Assembly: GCF_000148645.1 (NCBI RefSeq)
Contig: NC_014541.1
Span: 2,937,139 to 3,001,138 of the forward strand
Direction of reading: 5' to 3'
DNA length: 64,000 nucleotides
Origin: Ferrimonas balearica DSM 9799
Lineage (GTDB): Bacteria > Pseudomonadota > Gammaproteobacteria > Enterobacterales > Shewanellaceae
The position numbers were made by a program, and so were the translations under genes. The notes beneath the pieces were generated by a model. The model ran no database searches, was not told the origin of the DNA, and was given only the letters and a program-made list of their open reading frames with translations. Below are positions 1 through 14,206 of this stretch, piece after piece (the first letter of the stretch is position 1; the number at the start of each line of letters is the position of its first letter).

Positions 1-47
1 CTAAAAACAATTCAAATTGGATTTGTTTTTTTGACTAGGAGCCCGTC

Positions 48-1598
48 ATGTTTGCTAAAACCACTGTTTCCGCTTTTGTAGCCTCTATCCTCTTTTCTGC
101 CCAAGCTGCTGCAGGCGTGCCATGGATCGCAAAAGAAAGTCATGACCTCAAAAATATCCCCTGGACTTCAGAGCAGGTAATTAAGCGCGAAACCGACCGA
201 GGCTCCGACAAAACAAAACAGGCAACCGTTCCCTGGATTAAGCAGGTTGAAGAATTTGCGACAGTTCCCTGGATCAAACAAGTCGAAGAGCTGGCCACCG
301 TACCGTGGATTAAGCAGACCGAAGAATTAGCTACCGTACCGTGGATTAAGCAGACCGAGGAATTGGCCACCGTACCGTGGATTAAGCAGACCGAGGAATT
401 GGCCACCGTACCGTGGATTAAACAGACCGAAGAACTGGCCACCGTACCGTGGATTAAACAGACCGAAGAACTGGCCACCGTACCGTGGATTAAGCAGACC
501 GAACTGGCCACCGTGCCGTGGATTAAGCAGACCGAGCTGGCCACCGTGCCGTGGATTAAGCAGACCGAGCTGGCCACCGTACCGTGGATCAAACAGACCG
601 AGCTGGCCACCGTACCGTGGATCAAGCAGACCGAGCTGGCCACCGTACCGTGGATCAAGCAGACCGAGCTGGCCACCGTGCCGTGGATTAAGCAGACCGA
701 ACTGGCCACCGTGCCGTGGATTAAGCAGACCGAAGAGCTGGCCACCGTGCCGTGGATTAAGCAGACCGAGCTGGCCACCGTACCGTGGATTAAGCAGACC
801 GAGCTGGCCACCGTGCCGTGGATTAAGCAGACCGAACTGGCCACCGTGCCGTGGATCAAGCAGACCGAACTGGCCACCGTACCGTGGATCAAGCAGACCG
901 AACTGGCCACCGTGCCGTGGATCAAGCAGACCGAACTGGCCACTGTACCGTGGATCAAGCAGACCGAGCTGGCCACCGTGCCGTGGATTAAGCAGACCGA
1001 ACTGGCCACCGTACCGTGGATCAAGCAGACCGAGCTGGCCACCGTGCCGTGGATTAAGCAGACCGAGCTGGCCACCGTACCGTGGATTAAGCAGACCGAA
1101 CTGGCCACCGTACCGTGGATTAAGCAGACCGAACTGGCCACCGTGCCGTGGATCAAGCAGACCGAGCTGGCCACCGTACCGTGGATTAAGCAGACCGAAC
1201 TGGCCACCGTACCGTGGATTAAGCAGACCGAACTGGCCACCGTGCCGTGGATCAAGCAGACCGAGCTGGCCACCGTGCCGTGGATTAAGCAGACCGAACT
1301 GGCCACCGTGCCGTGGATTAAGCAGACCGAGCTGGCCACCGTACCGTGGATTAAGCAGACCGAGCTGGCCACCGTACCGTGGATTAAGCAGACCGAACTG
1401 GCCACCGTACCGTGGATCAAGCAGACCGAACTGGCCACCGTGCCGTGGATTAAGCAGACCGAACTGGCCACCGTGCCGTGGATTAAGCAGACCGAACTGG
1501 CCACCGTACCGTGGATTAAGCAAAGCCAGCAAAAGCCTCAGCCCAAGCCTGAGAGCACCCGCAACATTCCCTGGCTGAAGCCTTCTTCCGTAGCCTAA
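48..1598 (+). CDS. Exported tandem-repeat protein with about 39 PWIKQ motifs
   Basis: I do not recognise this 516-residue protein. Residues 1-22 form a Sec signal peptide (charged MFAK, hydrophobic core, AQAAA cleavage region). Residues 60-485 consist of 38 uninterrupted units, 30 of 11 residues (TVPWIKQTELA) and 8 of 12 residues (TVPWIKQTEELA or close variants), followed by a partial unit. Three further (V/I)PW motifs flank the array (VPWIAK near 24, IPWTSE near 37, IPWLKP near 508). Each unit has one Trp, one Pro, one Lys and one Glu and no Cys or His, so metal chelation by Cys/His is unlikely. The start is fixed by AGGAG seven bases before the ATG. The mature protein is probably periplasmic or extracellular. 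It could be a structural repeat protein or a multi-core peptide precursor; the sequence does not decide between them. No processing or modification enzyme is visible downstream, and upstream lies outside the window. Confidence 0.85.
   Translation: MFAKTTVSAFVASILFSAQAAAGVPWIAKESHDLKNIPWTSEQVIKRETDRGSDKTKQATVPWIKQVEEFATVPWIKQVEELATVPWIKQTEELATVPWIKQTEELATVPWIKQTEELATVPWIKQTEELATVPWIKQTEELATVPWIKQTELATVPWIKQTELATVPWIKQTELATVPWIKQTELATVPWIKQTELATVPWIKQTELATVPWIKQTELATVPWIKQTEELATVPWIKQTELATVPWIKQTELATVPWIKQTELATVPWIKQTELATVPWIKQTELATVPWIKQTELATVPWIKQTELATVPWIKQTELATVPWIKQTELATVPWIKQTELATVPWIKQTELATVPWIKQTELATVPWIKQTELATVPWIKQTELATVPWIKQTELATVPWIKQTELATVPWIKQTELATVPWIKQTELATVPWIKQTELATVPWIKQTELATVPWIKQTELATVPWIKQTELATVPWIKQTELATVPWIKQSQQKPQPKPESTRNIPWLKPSSVA
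225..1523 (+). repeat. 33/36-bp in-frame tandem repeat array
   Basis: About 39 head-to-tail units with period 33 bp, or 36 bp where an extra Glu codon is present. The central units differ almost only at three synonymous positions (GTA/GTG, ATT/ATC and GAA/GAG), with occasional AAA/AAG. The first two or three units are more diverged in codons and residues. This pattern suggests homogenisation of the centre by unequal exchange or slippage under protein-level selection. The array leaves long antisense reading frames open, which are by-products of the repeat. Confidence 0.97.
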
Positions 1599-1625: not shown

Positions 1626-1745
1626 ATGACTATGCTGACCAAAATCAAACAAGCTCTGGGTCTTTGTCCTCGCCGCAAGAAAGTGGCACTGCCAAGCGGC
1701 CTGCAGAACCTGGAAGTGATCACCGCAGAACGTTGGTGGCACTAA
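1626..1745 (+). CDS. 39-residue mini-protein downstream of the PWIK repeat gene
   Basis: ATG at 1626 follows AGAGAGG at a good distance and the frame runs to TAA at 1743. It encodes a 39-residue peptide beginning MTMLTKIKQALGLC, with a basic CPRRKK stretch near residues 14-19 and ending in ERWWH. It has no signal peptide. It begins 28 bases after the repeat gene stop with no terminator between, and the next strong hairpin is downstream at 1808, so the two genes are probably cotranscribed. I do not recognise it. The good ribosome site and the position inside the apparent transcript argue for a real gene, but length is little evidence at this size. Confidence 0.55.
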   Translation: MTMLTKIKQALGLCPRRKKVALPSGLQNLEVITAERWWH

Positions 1746-1807: not shown

Positions 1808-1843
1808 AACGCGGTCAGCTGTCCCAGCTGGCCGCGTTTTTTT
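1808..1843. terminator. Bidirectional rho-independent terminator
   Basis: A 14-bp stem (AACGCGGTCAGCTG against CAGCTGGCCGCGTT, one G-T wobble) with a three-base loop is followed by a run of T on the plus strand and preceded by A residues. It ends the PWIK repeat/mini-gene transcript. The minus-strand gene ending at 1815 has its stop codon and last residues inside the stem. Confidence 0.85.
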
Positions 1844-2009
1844 GCACCGCACGACGATGCAGCTGGCGCTCGGCCTGGAACAGCGGCCACAGCAACGGGC
1901 CCAGCAACAGCCCCTGAATCAGCCAGCGTCGGGGCGCCATCCCCGCTTTCAACGCTTCCAAATAGAAAAACGGTGCCGACAGCACCGCCACAAACAACCA
2001 CAACAGCAT
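1815..2009 (-). CDS. Small membrane protein, 64 aa
   Basis: Starting at ATG 2009 (AGGGGG six bases upstream) this encodes 64 residues: an N-terminal transmembrane segment (MLLWLFVAVLSAPFFYLEA), a second hydrophobic segment (LIQGLLLGPLLWPLF), and a basic C-terminus. The motif GPLLWPLF and the general shape look like small conserved inner-membrane proteins of Shewanella-type genomes, but I cannot name a family. A slightly longer start at 2027 exists but lacks the ribosome site. It follows fadJ on the same strand but is separated from it by a terminator, so it probably has its own promoter. Function unknown. Confidence 0.6.
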   Translation of the reverse strand: MLLWLFVAVLSAPFFYLEALKAGMAPRRWLIQGLLLGPLLWPLFQAERQLHRRAVQKNAASWDS

Positions 2010-2065
2010 CGAACCCCCTAACATCACTGCGCGAAAATTGTACCAATTAAATTCACCAGCGAAAT

Positions 2066-6126: not shown

Positions 6127-7083
6127 ATGCAGCTGGAACGACTCAACCAGATCCAACACTATCTGCAGCAGATGGTGCTGGGTCAGCCCGCCCTGGTAGA
6201 AGGGCTGCTTATCGCCCTGATCGCGGATGGCCACCTGCTGGTCGAGGGCCCGCCGGGGCTGGCTAAGACCCGGGCGGTCAAGGCGCTGGCCGACTGCATC
6301 CAGGGCAACTTCCACCGGGTGCAGTTCACCCCGGACCTGCTGCCCGCTGACCTCACCGGCACCGACATCTTTCGCCAGGAAACCGGCCAGTTCGAGTTTC
6401 AGCCCGGGCCGCTGTTTCACAACCTGATCCTCGCCGATGAGATCAACCGGGCACCGGCGAAAGTGCAATCCGCCCTGCTCGAAGCGATGGCGGAGGGCCA
6501 GATCACCGTGGGCAAACGCAGCTACCCGCTGCCCAAGCTGTTCCTGGTGATGGCGACCCAGAACCCGATTGAGAACGAAGGCACCTACCCGCTGCCGGAA
6601 GCCCAGCTCGACCGCTTCCTGCTGCATCTGGCGCTGGATTACCCCAACGCCGAGACCGAACGCCAGATCCTGGCCCTGTCCCGCAATGAAGCGATGAGCG
6701 CCCCGCTCAGCGCCCCGGAACCCCTGAGCGAAGCGGAGCTGTTCTCCGCCCGCCGTCAGGCGCTGGACCTCTACCTCGCTCCTCAGCTTGAGGGCTATAT
6801 GGTGGAGCTGGTGATGGCCACCCGAACTCCGGCCCGCTATGACGAAACCCTGGCCAACTGGATTCAGTGGGGCGTCAGCCCCCGTGCCACCATCGCGCTG
6901 GAGCGCTGCGCCCGGGCCCGCGCCTGGATCTGTGGCCGCGACTACGTGGCCCCGGAAGACATCCAGGCGGTGGCCCCCAATGTTCTGCGCCACCGCATCC
7001 TGCTGAGCTATCAGGCCGAAGCTGAGGGCGTTAACGCCGACCAGGTGATTCACCGCATTCTGAAACTGGTGGCCGTGCCCTGA
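6127..7083 (+). CDS. MoxR-family AAA+ ATPase
   Basis: A 318-residue MoxR ATPase. Walker A GPPGLAKT lies at residues 41-48, Walker B LILADE near 100-105, and the sensor 1 region is MATQNPIENEGTYPLPEAQLDRFL. The C-terminal part is the AAA lid. MoxR proteins act as chaperones that work with VWA-domain partners, here the DUF58, BatA and BatB proteins encoded directly after it. A GAGGA ribosome site precedes the ATG. Its TGA overlaps the next ATG (TGATG). Confidence 0.93.
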   Translation: MQLERLNQIQHYLQQMVLGQPALVEGLLIALIADGHLLVEGPPGLAKTRAVKALADCIQGNFHRVQFTPDLLPADLTGTDIFRQETGQFEFQPGPLFHNLILADEINRAPAKVQSALLEAMAEGQITVGKRSYPLPKLFLVMATQNPIENEGTYPLPEAQLDRFLLHLALDYPNAETERQILALSRNEAMSAPLSAPEPLSEAELFSARRQALDLYLAPQLEGYMVELVMATRTPARYDETLANWIQWGVSPRATIALERCARARAWICGRDYVAPEDIQAVAPNVLRHRILLSYQAEAEGVNADQVIHRILKLVAVP

Positions 7084-8003
7084 TGTCCGCCCCGTCCGAC
7101 CTGCCCCGTCACGGCGACGGGGTAACCCTGACCCTGCCGGAGCTGCTGGCCCGGGCCGAACACCGCAGCCTGGTGCAGAGCCACCACAGCGGCCAGGCCC
7201 GTGCGCTGATGGCCGGTGAGCGCCTGAGCCGCCTGAAAGGGCGCGGCATGGAGTTCTCCGAAGTGCGCGGTTACCAACCTGGTGACGACGTGCGCACCAT
7301 TGACTGGCGGGTCACCGCCCGCACCGGCAAAGCCCACACCAAGCTGTTCCGCGAAGAGCGGGAACGGCCAGTGTTGCTGTGCGTCGACCTTGGCCAGCGG
7401 ATGCATTACGGTTCCGAACTGCTGCTGCAATCGGTGCAGGCCGCCCACCTGGCGGCACTGTTGGGCTGGCACGTCAGCGCCGAAGGGGATCGGCTCGGCG
7501 GCCTGATCCTCAGCGAGCGCGGCCACCGGGAGCTCAAGCCCCGCGCCCGTCGCAGCGGGCTGCTGGCCCTGCTGGAAGCGCTGGTGGAGCTGCACCCCGG
7601 TGACGACAGCGAGGACAACGATTACTGGTCAGCGGGACTGCAGCGGCTGGAACGACTGGCCCGGCCCGGCACCACCGTGGTGGTGATCACCAATACCCTT
7701 GGCCTCGACAGCGCCAGCCTGGAGCGGCTGGCCCGCTTAAAACGTCATGCCGAGGTACGAGTGTTCAACATCACCGATCCGCTGTTTGACCGCCTCAAAG
7801 CCAGCCGCGGCCTGCTGCCGGTTCGCCAATCCCATTCCGGCCAATCCGGCTGGCTGAGCCGGGAGCGTCGTGACGCGTTGGCCAACCACTGGCACCAGGC
7901 CCAGGCCAACGCCCTCAATGGCGTCCGCCAGCGTCAGCTGATCTACAGCGAGATCAGTGCCACGCAACCACTGGAACAGCAATGGCGGAGGTTGTGGCTA
8001 TGA
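7083..8003 (+). CDS. DUF58 domain protein of the Bat operon
   Basis: A 306-residue cytosolic DUF58 protein. The family signature covers residues about 55-95: GMEFSEVRGYQPGDDVRTIDWRV, split here as GRGMEFSEVRGY and GDDVRTIDWRVTAR, followed by KLFREERERPVLLCVDLG, which resembles a degenerate VWA fold. DUF58 genes nearly always follow moxR. It overlaps moxR (TGATG) and the following DUF4381 gene (ATGA), indicating coupled translation. Its biochemical role is not established. Confidence 0.9.
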   Translation: MSAPSDLPRHGDGVTLTLPELLARAEHRSLVQSHHSGQARALMAGERLSRLKGRGMEFSEVRGYQPGDDVRTIDWRVTARTGKAHTKLFREERERPVLLCVDLGQRMHYGSELLLQSVQAAHLAALLGWHVSAEGDRLGGLILSERGHRELKPRARRSGLLALLEALVELHPGDDSEDNDYWSAGLQRLERLARPGTTVVVITNTLGLDSASLERLARLKRHAEVRVFNITDPLFDRLKASRGLLPVRQSHSGQSGWLSRERRDALANHWHQAQANALNGVRQRQLIYSEISATQPLEQQWRRLWL

Positions 8004-8458
8004 ACGCCTCCGACGCCCTGCACGACATTATCCTGCCCAGCCAACTCAACCCCTGGCCACCTCTGCTGGTCTGGCTGCTGCTGGCCATCCTGCTGGTTGC
8101 CCTGATTGCACTGGCCCTCTGGCAGTGGCGCCGTTACCGCCGCCTGGCTCCGGTGCGCGCAGCGCAGAAGCAGCTTGCTCAACTGCGCGCCGACGACCGT
8201 GAGCTGCCACGTCAGGTGCATGACCTGCTGAAACGCACCGCCATGAGTTACGTCCCCCGCGAGCGCGTGGCCGAACTCAGCGTTAAGGATTGGTATGACT
8301 GGCTTGACCAAGCACTGCCGGAATCCCAACGGGGCCAATGGCTGGACCTGATGGGCAACCCCTATCGCCGTGACAGTGGTCATGGCGGTCAGGCGCTGCT
8401 GAATCATGCCCGCCAAACCCTGCCCAAACTGGCAAACGCCCGGGAGGCCCAATGCTGA
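8000..8458 (+). CDS. DUF4381 membrane protein of the Bat operon
   Basis: Starting at ATG 8000 (GGAGG eight bases upstream; the ATG overlaps the previous stop as ATGA) gives 152 residues. An N-terminal hydrophobic segment (PPLLVWLLLAILLVALIALAL, residues about 19-39) anchors a basic cytoplasmic region with ELPRQVHDLLKRTAMSYVPRERVAELS, the pattern of DUF4381. It sits in the conserved moxR-DUF58-DUF4381-batA order and probably forms part of the membrane complex. Confidence 0.85.
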   Translation: MNASDALHDIILPSQLNPWPPLLVWLLLAILLVALIALALWQWRRYRRLAPVRAAQKQLAQLRADDRELPRQVHDLLKRTAMSYVPRERVAELSVKDWYDWLDQALPESQRGQWLDLMGNPYRRDSGHGGQALLNHARQTLPKLANAREAQC

Positions 8459-9420
8459 GTCTGGCCTTTCCCTGGATCTGGCTCGCCCTGCCACTGCCCT
8501 GGCTGTTCAAACGCCAGCGCCACGCTCAGGCCCGCGCCCTGCGTCTGCCCGATGCGCTGCTGGCCAACCAGGGGCTGACCACCGCCCCGCTGCCCCACCC
8601 GGCCTGGCGTTATCTGGCCATTTTGGCCTGGTTGCTGATTCTGTTGGCCGCCAGCCGCCCGCTGTGGATTGGGGAACCCGTCGCCATGAAACGTGAGGGG
8701 CGAGACCTGATGCTGGCGGTGGACCTGTCCGGCTCCATGCAGATTGAAGACATGGAGCTGGGCAACCGGGTGGTGGACCGCTTTACCATGGTGCGCCATG
8801 TGCTCAGTGACTTTATTGAGCGTCGCGACGGTGACCGCCTCGGTCTGATCCTCTTTGCCGACCAGGCTTACCTGCAGGCGCCGCTTACCTTCGACCGTTT
8901 TGCCGTGGCCCGTTTCCTCGATGAAGCGGTACTGGGGCTGGTGGGTCAGCAAACCGCCATTGGCGATGCCATCGCCCTCGGCGTAAAACGCTTCAATGAT
9001 CTGGAGCAGAGCTCGCGGGTGCTGGTGCTGCTGACCGACGGCGAAAACAACGCCGGCCGCTTTACCCCGGCTCAGGCAGTCAGCCTGGCGCGCCAGTCCG
9101 GTGTGAAGCTCTACACCATCGGCATCGGCTCCGCCGAGATCCGCCGCCGCGGCTTGCTCGGCACCCGCACCGTTAACCCCTCCAGCGACCTCGACCAAGC
9201 CGAGAAAAGCTTTATCCAGCTCAGCGAATCCACCGGCGGGCGTTACTTCCGGGCCCGCAGCACCGAGGAGCTGGAGTCGATCTACCAGGAGCTGGACCAG
9301 CTGGAGCCACTGGCCCGCGAACAAAGCCAATGGCGCCCCCAGACGGAACTGTTCTACTGGCCGTTAAGCGCGGCACTGGCTCTGCTGCTGATGCTGTCAC
9401 TGCGGAGGGCGTATGGCTGA
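8452..9420 (+). CDS. BatA-like VWA-domain membrane protein
   Basis: 322 residues: N-terminal BatA hydrophobic segments (residues about 1-20 and 53-70), a VWA domain with a complete MIDAS (D91-L-S93-G-S95, later LLTDGENNAG), and a C-terminal transmembrane helix (FYWPLSAALALLLML). The VWA domain should face the periplasm and bind Mg through the MIDAS. Bat proteins were first associated with aerotolerance in Bacteroides; the role in gammaproteobacteria is unresolved. It overlaps its neighbours by 7-8 bases at both ends. Confidence 0.9.
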   Translation: MLSLAFPWIWLALPLPWLFKRQRHAQARALRLPDALLANQGLTTAPLPHPAWRYLAILAWLLILLAASRPLWIGEPVAMKREGRDLMLAVDLSGSMQIEDMELGNRVVDRFTMVRHVLSDFIERRDGDRLGLILFADQAYLQAPLTFDRFAVARFLDEAVLGLVGQQTAIGDAIALGVKRFNDLEQSSRVLVLLTDGENNAGRFTPAQAVSLARQSGVKLYTIGIGSAEIRRRGLLGTRTVNPSSDLDQAEKSFIQLSESTGGRYFRARSTEELESIYQELDQLEPLAREQSQWRPQTELFYWPLSAALALLLMLSLRRAYG

Positions 9421-11239
9421 ATTCCACCTGATGCGTCCCGCCCTGCTGCTGTTGTGGCTGCTGCTGCCACTGGTGGGCTGGGCCCTACTGCGCCAGCAAA
9501 GCCAGGCCGCCCTGTGGCACAAAGTGCTGCCGGCGCACCTGCAGCCCGCCATGCTGGATGACCGGATGGAAACCGGCCAGAAAGTGCAGCCGCTGTGGCT
9601 GCTGCTGGCGCTGTTTATTGCCATCTTTGCCCTGGCCGGACCGGCGTGGGACAAGGAGGAGGTGCCCCTGTTCCAGCTGCAGAAAGGTCGGGTGCTGGTG
9701 CTGGATATGTCCGACTCCATGTGGGCCACCGACCTGCCGCCCAATCGCCTCACCCAGGCCCGCTTTAAAGCCACCGACCTGCTGCGCCAGGCCGGTGAAG
9801 GGGAGATGGCGCTGGTGGCCTATGCCGGAGACGCGTTTATTCTGGCGCCGATGACCGAAGACCGCGCCACTCTGCTGAACCTGCTGCCCGCCCTCTCCCC
9901 GGAGATCATGCCGGTGCGCGGCTCCAACCTGCCCGCCGCCCTGCAACAGGCCGACCGCCTCCTGCGGGACGCCGGATACCAGCAGGGGGACATTGTGCTG
10001 CTGACCGATGACCTGCCCGCTGAGCATATGGATGCCGCGCTGGAGCTGGCTGAATCCCAGCCCTGGCGCCTGCAAATCCTGGCCCTCGGCAGCGAAGATG
10101 GTGCACCGATGAAACGCCCCAGCGGCGAACTGGTGCGGGATTTGGATGGCAGCGTCGCCATCGTTCGTACCCACTTTGAACGCCTGCAGAAGCTGGCCAG
10201 TGCCAGCGGCGGAGAGCTGGTGCGCTACCGCCCGGACAGTGCCGACATCAATGCCCTGCTCCATGACGCCCCGGAACTGGGTGAAGAGAACGAAAAAGCG
10301 TCCGAGCAACACCACAGCCAATGGCGGGACCGAGGTGGGCAGATCCTGCTGCTGGCCCTGCTGCCACTGGCCTTTGGTATGCGCCGCCAGGGCCTGCTCA
10401 GCCTGCTGTTGTTGCTGATGCCGTTGTCATTCACGCCGCAACGGGCGGAAGCCGCCTGGTGGCAAAACGCCGATCAGGCCGCCAAAACCCAGTTCGATGC
10501 CGGCCAGTTCAGCGAGGCTGCGGAAGGGTTTACTGACCCGGCCTGGAAAGGCGCCGCCTACTACCGGGCTGGCGACTACGCCCGGGCACTGGCCGCCTTC
10601 GAACAGGTTGAGGGCGTCGACGCCCTCTACAACCAGGGCAATGCACTGGCCCAAATGGCGCAGTATCCGCAGGCCGCCGAGCGCTATCGCTCAGTGCTGG
10701 CCCAACAGCCGGACCACCAGGCCGCCCGCGATAACCTCGAGTGGGTGGAACAGCAGATGCAACAGTCGCCTGAACAGCAACAAAATGACAGCGACCAGGG
10801 CGATAAAGGGGAAGGAGAGAACCCGTCCGAGGGCGAGTCGGACCAAACCGAACCCGGCGAGGGCCAGCAGGATGACAATGGCCAACCCAGCGACTCCGAG
10901 CCCTCTGAACCGCCGGGCGAGCAACAGCCGGACGACAGCGGCAGCGCCTCCCCATCGGAGCCGGAACCGCATCAGGGTGAGCAGGAGCCTCCGTCCGAGC
11001 AGCCCGGCCAGGCCGAGCCACAACCCGAAAGCGGCGATCCCAGTGAGCGCGAGCCGGAGTCTCAGGGCGAGGCGCAAGCGGCCGAGGCCCGGGAAGGCGA
11101 CCCCAATGACGAACAACTGCAGCGGCTACTGGACCAGGTGGTGGATGACCCCGCCCGCCTGCTGCGAAACAAAATGGAACTGGAATACGAGCGTCGCCGC
11201 CAGAGTGGCGACACCAACAGGGAGCAAACCCAGTGGTAA
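9413..11239 (+). CDS. BatB/BatC fusion: VWA domain plus TPR and acidic tail
   Basis: 608 residues. N-terminal transmembrane segments (MRPALLLLWLLLPLVGWALL and LWLLLALFIAIFALAG), a VWA domain with MIDAS D98-M-S100-D-S102, a further membrane segment near 310-345, then a TPR region (roughly 345-440, with AAYYRAGDYARALAAFEQV and ALYNQGNALAQMAQYPQAAERY split as repeats), and finally about 140 residues rich in Glu, Asp, Gln, Ser and Pro. BatB and BatC are separate genes in Bacteroides; here they are one protein, as is common in Shewanella-type operons. It overlaps batA and batD. Confidence 0.9.
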   Translation: MAEFHLMRPALLLLWLLLPLVGWALLRQQSQAALWHKVLPAHLQPAMLDDRMETGQKVQPLWLLLALFIAIFALAGPAWDKEEVPLFQLQKGRVLVLDMSDSMWATDLPPNRLTQARFKATDLLRQAGEGEMALVAYAGDAFILAPMTEDRATLLNLLPALSPEIMPVRGSNLPAALQQADRLLRDAGYQQGDIVLLTDDLPAEHMDAALELAESQPWRLQILALGSEDGAPMKRPSGELVRDLDGSVAIVRTHFERLQKLASASGGELVRYRPDSADINALLHDAPELGEENEKASEQHHSQWRDRGGQILLLALLPLAFGMRRQGLLSLLLLLMPLSFTPQRAEAAWWQNADQAAKTQFDAGQFSEAAEGFTDPAWKGAAYYRAGDYARALAAFEQVEGVDALYNQGNALAQMAQYPQAAERYRSVLAQQPDHQAARDNLEWVEQQMQQSPEQQQNDSDQGDKGEGENPSEGESDQTEPGEGQQDDNGQPSDSEPSEPPGEQQPDDSGSASPSEPEPHQGEQEPPSEQPGQAEPQPESGDPSEREPESQGEAQAAEAREGDPNDEQLQRLLDQVVDDPARLLRNKMELEYERRRQSGDTNREQTQW

Positions 11240-12909
11240 GTTCACCCCTTTCCCGCCTGCTGTTCATGGCCCTGCTGTGGCTTGGACTCAGCCCCGCCAC
11301 CCTGGCGCTGACCGAGCTGCAGGCCAGCATCGACCAAAACCCGGTGGTGGCAGGCCAGTCCTTCATTCTTGAGGTGGTGGCCGACGACGACGTGGAGAGC
11401 AACGCGCTGGACACCAGCGCCCTGCTGCGGGATTTTGCCGTGGGCCAGACCCGGGTCAGCCGCTCCACCCAGATCGTCAACTTTGATGCCCGCCGGGAAA
11501 CCCGCTGGACGGTGATGCTGATTGCCCGCAATCCGGGCCAGGTGACCCTGCCGGCACTGGACATCAACGGCGTACGCAGTCAGCCCATCGCCCTGACCGT
11601 GCTGGCGCCGGGGGATGCTCAGGTACAGAACCAGACCCCACTGGTCTTTCTGGAAACTGATCTGGCCCAGGACACCCTGTGGCTGGGCCAGCCCGCGAAA
11701 GCCACGGTTCGCCTGTTTCTGGGGGCCGACCTGCAACGGGGTGCCCTGAACGCCCCCAGTGCCGATAACGCCCTGATCCGCCAGCTGGGTCAGGACCGGG
11801 AATCCAGCCAGATCATCAAGGGCCGCCGCTACCGCATCATTGAGCGCGACTACGTTATCGTGCCGCAAATCACCGGCACCGTGAGCCTGCAACCCGCCAA
11901 CTTTGAGGGCGACGTATTGGTGCCCAGTGGCCGCCGCGACCTGTTTGGCCGGGCCCAGCCCAAGCCGATGGCGATCCAGGGGGAGCCGATCGAACTGAAC
12001 GTCAAAGCGCAGCCTGCCAGCTACCAGGGCCACTGGCTGGCCGCAGACCTGGTGACGCTCAATGACAGCCTGGACCCGAGCCAAAGTTTTGAAGTGGGCC
12101 AACCCATCTCCCGCACCCTGACCCTCACTGCGGTCGGTGCGGTGGAGGAGAGCCTGGCGGAGATCCCGCTTGAGGTGCCGGAGTCGCTGCGCCTCTATAC
12201 CGATAAAAACCAGCGCCAGGGCGGCGTGCAGAATGGTCAGCTGATCGCCCGGCTTGAGCAAACCATGGCGATTGTGCCGTCTCAGCCTGGCGAATACACC
12301 CTGCCGGAGATCAAGGTGCCCTGGTGGAACGCCCGTCTCGGGCGCCAGCAGTGGGCAACCCTGCCCGCCCAGACCATCACGGTCACCGGCACCGCCGCCA
12401 GCCCGGCCACCCCGCCGCCGGTGCTCAGCGACAGCGGCCGCCCGGCGGCCGAACCCATCACCCAAACCCCAAATTCTCCGGGCTACTGGCCCTGGGCAAC
12501 GGCGCTGTTTGCCCTGCTGTGGCTGGCCACTCTGGTCTGGGGATGGCAGCGGGGCCGTGGCTATCGCACCGAGCCACAACCGGCCGCGACGCCAACCCCT
12601 TCCTCCAATACCTTGGCTGCGCTGCACAAAGCCTGTCAGCAGAACCAGGCGGAAACCGCGCTGGCGCTGCTGCCCGAGTGGGCCAGTGAGCACAGTGGCA
12701 AGACCATGAGCCTGGCGGATATTGGCCACCATTACCCCAGCCTCGCCGGACCGCTCAAAGAACTTCAGGCATCCCGCTACAGTGTTCGTAATACCCCCTG
12801 GCAAGGACAGGCCCTGGCGGCCGAGCTGACCCGCCTGCAAAAGCAGAAGGCCAACCAGCAAGCGAGTCCCTTGCCGCCACTCAATCCCGCCACCAGAATG
12901 GAAAGGTGA
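11233..12909 (+). CDS. BatD-like oxygen tolerance protein
   Basis: 558 residues from GTG 11233, which overlaps the preceding stop by seven bases. A signal peptide (SRLLFMALLWLGLSPATLALT) leads into a large periplasmic region of repeated Ig-like beta domains (ELQASIDQNPVVAGQSFIL is the typical BatD opening), then a single transmembrane helix near residue 420 (WPWATALFALLWLATLVWGW) and a cytoplasmic tail. BatD is the last member of the conserved operon and probably forms the periplasmic arm of the complex. Confidence 0.9.
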   Translation: MVSSPLSRLLFMALLWLGLSPATLALTELQASIDQNPVVAGQSFILEVVADDDVESNALDTSALLRDFAVGQTRVSRSTQIVNFDARRETRWTVMLIARNPGQVTLPALDINGVRSQPIALTVLAPGDAQVQNQTPLVFLETDLAQDTLWLGQPAKATVRLFLGADLQRGALNAPSADNALIRQLGQDRESSQIIKGRRYRIIERDYVIVPQITGTVSLQPANFEGDVLVPSGRRDLFGRAQPKPMAIQGEPIELNVKAQPASYQGHWLAADLVTLNDSLDPSQSFEVGQPISRTLTLTAVGAVEESLAEIPLEVPESLRLYTDKNQRQGGVQNGQLIARLEQTMAIVPSQPGEYTLPEIKVPWWNARLGRQQWATLPAQTITVTGTAASPATPPPVLSDSGRPAAEPITQTPNSPGYWPWATALFALLWLATLVWGWQRGRGYRTEPQPAATPTPSSNTLAALHKACQQNQAETALALLPEWASEHSGKTMSLADIGHHYPSLAGPLKELQASRYSVRNTPWQGQALAAELTRLQKQKANQQASPLPPLNPATRMER

Positions 12910-12945: not shown

Positions 12946-13512
12946 ATGTTGAACTGGTTTGGAAAGAAAAACGCGTCGTCGACGGTCTCTACGGACATGA
13001 TCAGCAAACAACGACGCTACGAGACACTGGTGCGCGCTCTGCACGGTGATCTCTACCGCTATGCCTACTGGCTCAGCCACGACGCCTCCGTCGCAGAGGA
13101 CCTGGTTCAGGAGACCTTTCTGCGTGCCTGGAAGGCGCTGGACTCACTCAAGGATGATAAGGCCGCCAAGGCGTGGCTGATCACCATCCTGCGGCGGGAG
13201 AATGCCCGGCGCTTTGAACGCAAACAGTTTGACCTTACGGACATAGAACAGTGTCAGGTGGCGGATAACGACAGCCTCAGCCACGAGCAGATGGCCGACC
13301 ATCAGGTGTTGCGCCGACAGATGGCGATGCTCAGCCCGGAGTACCGGGAGCCGCTTATTCTGCAGGTGATGTATGGCTTCAGCGGCGACGAGATTGCCGA
13401 GATTCTGGAGCTGAACCGCAATACCGTCATGACCCGCCTGTTCCGGGCCCGTAACCAACTTCGGGACGCACTCAGTCCCAACCAGACTTCAAGGGGCCAC
13501 AGCAATGGATGA
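12946..13512 (+). CDS. ECF RNA polymerase sigma factor
   Basis: 188 residues with region 2 (LYRYAYWLSHDASVAEDLVQETFLRAWKAL, cited in parts: DLVQETFLRAW) and region 4 helix-turn-helix (LILQVMYGFSGDEIAEIL followed by NTVMTRLFRAR). The chosen ATG has AGGA eight bases upstream; a shorter start at 12997 is possible. It begins 36 bases after batD and overlaps the next gene by eight bases, the normal arrangement for a sigma factor and its regulator. Confidence 0.92.
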   Translation: MLNWFGKKNASSTVSTDMISKQRRYETLVRALHGDLYRYAYWLSHDASVAEDLVQETFLRAWKALDSLKDDKAAKAWLITILRRENARRFERKQFDLTDIEQCQVADNDSLSHEQMADHQVLRRQMAMLSPEYREPLILQVMYGFSGDEIAEILELNRNTVMTRLFRARNQLRDALSPNQTSRGHSNG

Positions 13513-14206
13513 ACTGGAATTCCGGCGTCGGGCCTACTCCGACCCTAACCAGGACGATAATGAATTTGTTGCCGCCATGGGCGATGCACCGGGCCGTGCT
13601 GAGTTTGTCAAACAGCTGCAGGGCATGGACCGGGAACTGGAACAGGCTCTCAAGGTGCCGGTGCCCGATGACCTGGCCGAGCGCCTGCTGCTGAAGCAGA
13701 ACATGACGGTACACCGCGACCAGAAGCGTCGACATCGCTGGCAGATGGCCGCTGCCGCGTCAGTGGCGTTTGCCATCGGGCTCTCTTTCGCGGTGTTCAA
13801 CCAGGGTACCGGCGATCTGGGCCAGCACGCCCTGGCGCACGTGGCCCATGAGGCGGGCTTTACCTCCTACGTGGATGAGCAGGTCGACCTGCGTGCCCTC
13901 AACACCAAACTCGCCAGCTTTGGCGGCCAGTTTGATGCGCTTCCGGGTGAGGTGTATTACGCCAACTACTGCGATTTCGAGGGGATCCGCAGTCTGCACA
14001 TCGTGATGAGTTCCGATCAGGGCCGTGTCACCCTGTTTGTGATCCCCAAGCAGAACGAGATGACGCTTCCCCCACAGTTCGCGGATAAGCGCTATCACGG
14101 CATCGGGGAAGACCGGGCCGGTGTGCACCTGGCCGTTGTCGGTGATAAGGGCCAGCCACTGGAGCCGGTACTGAAGCGGGTGGAAGCGGGCTACCAACCG
14201 CTGTAA
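13505..14206 (+). CDS. DUF3379 protein, probable anti-sigma partner
   Basis: 233 residues: a cytoplasmic N-terminal part (about 1-80), one transmembrane helix (WQMAAAASVAFAIGLSFAVF), and a periplasmic domain. The N-terminal MDELEFRRRAYSDP and overall form match the DUF3379 family found directly after ECF sigma genes in Shewanella and Vibrio relatives. The anti-sigma role is inferred from topology and the eight-base overlap with the sigma gene; it lacks a recognisable zinc-binding ZAS motif (HxxxCxxC). Confidence 0.8.
   Translation: MDELEFRRRAYSDPNQDDNEFVAAMGDAPGRAEFVKQLQGMDRELEQALKVPVPDDLAERLLLKQNMTVHRDQKRRHRWQMAAAASVAFAIGLSFAVFNQGTGDLGQHALAHVAHEAGFTSYVDEQVDLRALNTKLASFGGQFDALPGEVYYANYCDFEGIRSLHIVMSSDQGRVTLFVIPKQNEMTLPPQFADKRYHGIGEDRAGVHLAVVGDKGQPLEPVLKRVEAGYQPL

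Follow-up and report, generated by a model that had tools for sequence, protein, structure and literature searches.

The repeat protein of 516 amino acids encoded near the start of this stretch of Ferrimonas DNA is probably the ligand half of a co-diversifying ligand–receptor pair. We put at roughly two in three the probability of this reading as a whole, that is, expression from a sigma-54 promoter, Sec export, binding of the repeat unit to the sensor encoded next door and a resulting change in c-di-GMP. Exported many-copy peptides of Shewanella and Ferrimonas form a previously undescribed family, and the unit seen in the window (the whole 64-kb stretch analysed) represents one allele of a ligand-like array that occurs family-wide and is species-specific. 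This last aspect lay beyond what a first-pass annotation of the same DNA could see; its proposals of export, an unknown family and strong constraint are supported. No literature on the locus, its units or a Shewanella peptide signal was found in open-access publications.

The repeat gene (48..1598; this and the following features are on the forward strand unless stated otherwise) starts with an ATG, 6 nt downstream of the ribosome-binding site AGGAG (37..41), and is present in a single copy in its 4.28-Mb genome. Its product, the proposed multi-copy peptide ligand or a precursor thereof, has the N-terminus MFAKTTVSAFVASILFSAQAAA|GVPW. Read by eye, this looks like a Sec signal peptide (residues 1-22, 48..113) with AxA ahead of Gly23; the leaders of relatives are of the same type, and the protein is thus predicted to be exported, as had been proposed. 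A non-repeat segment follows (114..224) with two degenerate units, VPWIAKE and IPWTSEQ, likewise found in F. balearica relatives. The array (225..1523) consists of 39 units with the core TVPWIKQ and the linker TELA or TEELA. The C-terminal tail (1524..1595), SQQKPQPKPESTRNIPWLKPSSVA, contains one degenerate unit and is kept in near Ferrimonas relatives; it ends in -VA, and nearly all relatives end in Ala too. The annotated figure of 39 PWIKQ copies is exact, and the array, said to fill more than four fifths of the mature protein, makes up ~87% of it. Successive copies are spaced by 11 residues (30 times) or 12 residues (eight times), the longer spacing occurring where EE replaces E ahead of the linker Leu/Phe. 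With a TRF score of 1952 (33-nt unit, 36.8 copies, 94% match), and as the only tandem array that TRF reports in the window, the array is far beyond chance. The long ORFs in the array's other frames simply follow from a period that is divisible by three.

Both the profile searches and the structure prediction suggested by the first-pass annotation were carried out. No characterised repeat family was matched confidently, and searches of Pfam, NCBIfam, PHROGs, PADLOC and PDB gave no reliable match. Known repeat and domain families were rejected as candidates because their low E-values are sums of many weak repeat matches, for which mostly no stretch passes alone. AlphaFold gave no confident fold for either version modelled: the window protein yields a beta-rich model of low confidence (pLDDT 50), and a Shewanella version reaches a pLDDT of 31.

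The second gene of the operon is a conserved small ORF (1626..1745) of 39 amino acids with the pattern RKKxxLPxGLxxLEVxxAxxWW, and a strong intrinsic terminator (14-bp stem and T run, 1808..1838) closes the two-gene unit. Across the GTDB family, the small ORF (37-39 amino acids) is present in 132 of 152 genomes and has 13 invariant positions among 18 species, with LP, G-L, L-E and WW invariant. Its product is probably cytoplasmic and may, as a guess, act on the receptor or on the export step. In some Shewanella, two tandem diverged copies of this WW-ending ORF occur (L028, L051, L052, L058, L065, L067, L071, L089, L090 and others). Upstream, just outside the window, CTGGCACAGGGCTTGC is a near-consensus sigma-54 promoter 66 nt 5' of the ATG. 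Of 111 loci, nearly all have a -24/-12 element of the form TGGCAC-N5-TTGC at a plausible distance from the gene (56-109 nt 5' of its start), and the element also precedes the single-copy and outside-family forms described below; the common score of 12.5 is reached in 0.5% of shuffled sequences. Judged by this motif, the operon would be sigma-54-dependent.

In those loci of the family that were read over their full length, and also in other families of the same order, the genes run M16 peptidase, propeller GGDEF-EAL sensor, repeat gene, small ORF, then fadJ in convergent orientation. The M16 (insulinase/PqqF-like) peptidase (L159:1289-4093, contig C1 of genome G000, upstream of the window), directly 5' of the sensor, apparently lacks a signal peptide. 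Such an enzyme could degrade peptides, and the wider neighbourhood is conserved as well. It was rejected as a processing enzyme since adjacency is weak evidence where aroC- and prmB-like genes (named by eye) are also conserved. A conserved membrane protein of ~60-70 amino acids, APFFYLEALKAGMAPRRWLIQGLLLGPLLWPLFQAERQLHRR (1815-2027, reverse strand), is encoded between fadJ and the operon, with its gene facing the operon; Shewanella has ORFs resembling it at the same position, as do other families when judged by eye.

Searches with the repeat protein as query found only near relatives with related units. The small ORF as query revealed the family, with an exported tandem-repeat protein encoded immediately 5' of the small ORF. 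Weak whole-protein matches (L006, L007 and L010-L013) were left out of the relatives, and L008 is an unrelated lipoprotein-like repeat. The same locus occurs in most Shewanellaceae genomes with a unit that differs from species to species, such that 113 arrays contain 96 distinct units. The period is 13 residues in 104 arrays and otherwise 9, 11, 14, 15 or 17, the median copy number is 11.5, and the units have the common core A-x-x-P-x-[IVL]-[KR] (also written x-x-P-x-[IV]-[KR]-x). Eight Ferrimonas genomes without a recognisable small ORF were examined. In six of these the sensor is still followed by an array, e.g. AGSIPWIKLSEQQT; one of the six arrays is truncated by the end of its contig. One of the remaining two has a single IAGTPWLGG copy and the other no copy. 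Outside the family, the slot of the array is taken by proteins of 65-138 amino acids with RIPVRF-type cores (4-5 copies), by exported peptides of 40-48 amino acids without arrays (one has IEDQVGL twice) or by a 145-amino acid array ending in GMIRI. In addition, four Shewanella genomes have a single-copy form of 59 amino acids ending in -PIVIF or -PIVVF. Short peptides and long arrays therefore share one position. In a Paraferrimonas-type genome (G017), a very short array of six LPWIENQ units at L044 has Glu instead of the otherwise near-invariant Lys/Arg (the array is also found at L009:1441-1731). In genome G011, from the window's genus, the divergent array IAALPWWGDEKPNQ (L145/L164) has a period of 14, no basic residue after the core and a diverged small ORF.

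Differences between the copies of an array are mostly synonymous (pN 0.026 vs pS 0.313), with pN below pS in all 103 arrays out of 103. Arrays are thus translated in this frame, and their copies are held identical by selection. In the window array, pN is 0 and pS is 0.21 over 30 units. The description of its unit as 'almost invariant' is true of the protein, in which all 30 11-mers are the same, but not of the DNA, which comprises 10 distinct 33-mers with mixed ATT/ATC, GAA/GAG and GTG/GTA codons. Since this variation is almost entirely in three codons, some DNA homogenisation has occurred there too. Constraint or fresh homogenisation had been offered as alternatives: constraint is borne out across the family, and homogenisation contributes in the window array without being the whole story. 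Fresh homogenisation by itself, like a gene that is not translated, is contradicted by pN far below pS, despite the limited codon diversity of the window array. Among 13-residue units, positions 2-8 combine high diversity between species with very low diversity within arrays. Specifically, the exact core of its own array (positions 2-7) is found in 1200 of 1231 units (97%), and the linker positions 9-13 are more variable within arrays than the core. Such low within-array diversity at the core would fit a recognition motif, whereas in a load-bearing repeat one would expect copies to be free to differ there.

The gene directly 5' of the array encodes a protein of ~1400 amino acids with Reg_prop and Y_Y_Y domains, a transmembrane segment, PAS domains, GGDEF and EAL. 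Across 57 genomes, the mean difference is 0.66 for its periplasmic half and 0.22 for its cytoplasmic half. In close pairs, the periplasmic halves mostly differ by 0.37-0.66 of their amino acids and the cytoplasmic halves by 0.3-5%. Between G102 and G130, for example, 57% of the periplasmic half differs against 0.3% of the cytoplasmic one, and the preceding M16 gene is 97% identical. Close pairs were chosen by low cytoplasmic distance, a choice addressed by a paralogous propeller GGDEF-EAL sensor, which in the same pairs differs by 0.09 (periplasmic) and 0.05 (cytoplasmic) vs 0.43 and 0.019 for the neighbour sensor. The hypervariable stretch covers about residues 110-650; distances in it are alignment-dependent, and pairwise profiles give the same picture. 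Its sharp edges suggest allele replacement, and no receptor alleles common to distant species were seen in the 57 genomes. The comparison is between species, with one genome for each.

Changes in the unit go along with changes in this outer domain. In pairs with a cytoplasmic distance below 0.05, the periplasmic difference is 0.12, 0.26, 0.40 and ~0.5 at zero, one, two and at least three unit changes, respectively. The two closest pairs with identical units differ by 0.08 and 0.16 in the periplasmic half; L275 and L276 have identical units, yet differ by 0.39 in that half. Over 25 disjoint pairs, the unit correlates with the periplasmic half given the cytoplasmic half (partial Spearman 0.57, p=0.004), and the correlation with the cytoplasmic half given the periplasmic half is 0.15 (not significant). 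A partial Mantel test gives r=0.26 (p=0.0005), a modest effect, for species pairs that share history and are not fully independent. Choosing nearest neighbours by the periplasmic domain gave no significant improvement over choosing them by the cytoplasmic domain (p=0.08). In agreement with the association, the window lineage differs from two near relatives with another unit by 0.60-0.62 (periplasmic) and 0.11-0.12 (cytoplasmic), and these two, which have their unit in common, differ from each other by 0.31 and 0.09. Simple hitchhiking of the array with the sensor seems unlikely because the conserved cytoplasmic half sits between the two variable parts. As in a pherotype locus, the gene of an exported peptide adjoins that of a membrane receptor, the outer domain of the receptor is hypervariable next to a conserved cytoplasmic domain and conserved flanks, and the peptide changes track the outer domain. 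On sequence grounds, such co-variation is what one would expect of a peptide signal and its receptor in bacteria.

In the preferred reading, the array gene would be read from the sigma-54-type promoter and its product exported by Sec as a chain of many identical 7-residue recognition cores (TVPWIKQ here) joined through linkers that are short and tolerant. Either the whole array or individual units cleaved from it would bind the periplasmic Reg_prop/Y_Y_Y domain of the upstream GGDEF-EAL protein, and binding to this propeller would alter c-di-GMP output. From species to species, the core and the periplasmic domain would change in step and so form specificity groups (pherotypes) that are private. 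Processing, release, binding and the direction of the c-di-GMP response are inferred steps. No conserved protease site is obvious between units, and so the intact array may be the ligand. Polymorphic peptide–receptor pairs are known from Gram-positives, where they act through kinases or RRNPP proteins. A wider proposal, which we hold with about as much doubt as conviction, is that Shewanella, Ferrimonas and their relatives have a class of peptide pheromone new to Gram-negatives, in which a sigma-54-controlled polyprotein made up of identical short peptides is read by a polymorphic propeller receptor that itself makes or breaks c-di-GMP, so that the motile–sessile switch is under species-private control. 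If confirmed, a large group of environmental Gram-negatives would have a self-specific peptide signal that is genetically encoded and feeds directly into c-di-GMP, and a ligand would be supplied for a Reg_prop GGDEF-EAL receptor, a class with mostly unknown inputs. Moreover, dozens of natural ligand–receptor allele pairs could be read from genomes, making specificity directly testable.

The co-diversification data would also fit an uncut array that never leaves the periplasm and serves its own cell's sensor as a multivalent accessory ligand or co-subunit, reporting for example on secretion, proteolysis or envelope state, with no cell–cell signal. A signal of the Sec type only, no known outer-membrane exit route, the lack of an obvious cleavage site and the many copies per chain, which suit receptor clustering, all speak for this arrangement. 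Yet it is not clear why a ligand that is purely private should diversify between close species, and the single-copy and short versions mean that multivalency is not essential; we regard this arrangement as unlikely. Less probable still is a structural surface or matrix protein (beta-solenoid, fibre or adhesin) in which repeats give length and the adjacent c-di-GMP enzyme merely regulates biofilm. The low-confidence beta-rich model of the window protein may reflect such a structural repeat, and hydrophobic residues do alternate in xPx[IV][KR]x. However, the unit length varies across the family (9, 11, 12, 13, 14 or 15), non-repeat and single-copy forms exist, and the pLDDT of the Shewanella version is 31. 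Furthermore, the positions that vary least within arrays rank with those that vary most between species, and the unit tracks the periplasmic domain of the sensor.

Units that are species-specific, fast-changing and exported could also belong to a competition system, acting as a toxin or inhibitor against relatives while the sensor detects competitors or self. We consider this very improbable: an immunity-like gene varying with the unit was not seen, the adjacent small ORF is highly conserved (13 invariant positions in 18 species), and PADLOC gave no reliable match. Hardly any weight can be given to a neutral slippage array, a functionless unit shaped by copy-number turnover and drift. Tandem arrays of this kind do expand and contract, and codon diversity in the window array is limited, but the codon data contradict neutrality in all arrays, promoter, operon and locus are conserved across the family, and the unit is associated with the sensor.

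The co-diversifying ligand–receptor reading is best compared with ComX-ComP of Bacillus, in which the gene of a secreted peptide adjoins that of a membrane receptor and specificity groups exist (PMC4008528). There, the N-terminal ligand-binding half of ComP is highly variable and its cytoplasmic half conserved, and the C-terminal signal part of ComX is the most variable (PMC4008528). The array locus resembles this ComQXPA system in its variable peptide, variable outer receptor half and conserved inner half. ComX, however, carries an isoprenyl group added by ComQ, and its receptor is a histidine kinase, whereas the array locus is Gram-negative and has a many-copy ligand and a Reg_prop GGDEF-EAL receptor; neither a ComQ isoprenyl transferase nor a ComP-type kinase is found among the array's neighbours (M16 peptidase, sensor and fadJ). 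By analogy, the array–sensor system would work like the pherotypes of ComX-ComP or AgrD-AgrC without being a member, the ligand and receptor families being different.

AgrD-AgrC of Staphylococcus is another polymorphic peptide–receptor pair with a conserved cytoplasmic part. Its product is a cyclic thiolactone made by AgrB, whereas no Agr-type genes, and no AgrB-type processing enzyme in particular, are present among the same three neighbours. In the yeast alpha-factor precursor, too, a secretory leader precedes a tandem series of identical short peptides, and the unit is species-specific; the copies are split at Kex2/Ste13 sites, of which none are evident in the array, and are read by a GPCR. 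The single-copy forms of the family resemble the Phr/PapR pro-peptides of Bacillus, which are short, exported and active in their C-terminal segment. Phr/PapR peptides are re-imported and read by cytoplasmic RRNPP proteins, whereas the sensor next to the array is periplasmic. NspS-MbaA and other periplasm-sensing c-di-GMP enzymes pass periplasmic ligand information to a membrane GGDEF-EAL protein, but the NspS-MbaA ligand is a polyamine, sensed via a binding protein and without a co-diversifying peptide. Lastly, Reg_prop/Y_Y_Y hybrid two-component sensors have the same periplasmic propeller domains as the array's neighbour. These typically sense glycans and signal by phosphotransfer, whereas the neighbour has a GGDEF-EAL output and a linked variable peptide gene.

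Elsewhere in the window (6127-12909, forward strand) is an uninterrupted series of genes that, named by inspection, are of the MoxR-type AAA ATPase, DUF58, von Willebrand A and BatD-like kinds. Next, at 12946-14206, come a sigma-factor-like ORF and a possible anti-sigma ORF.
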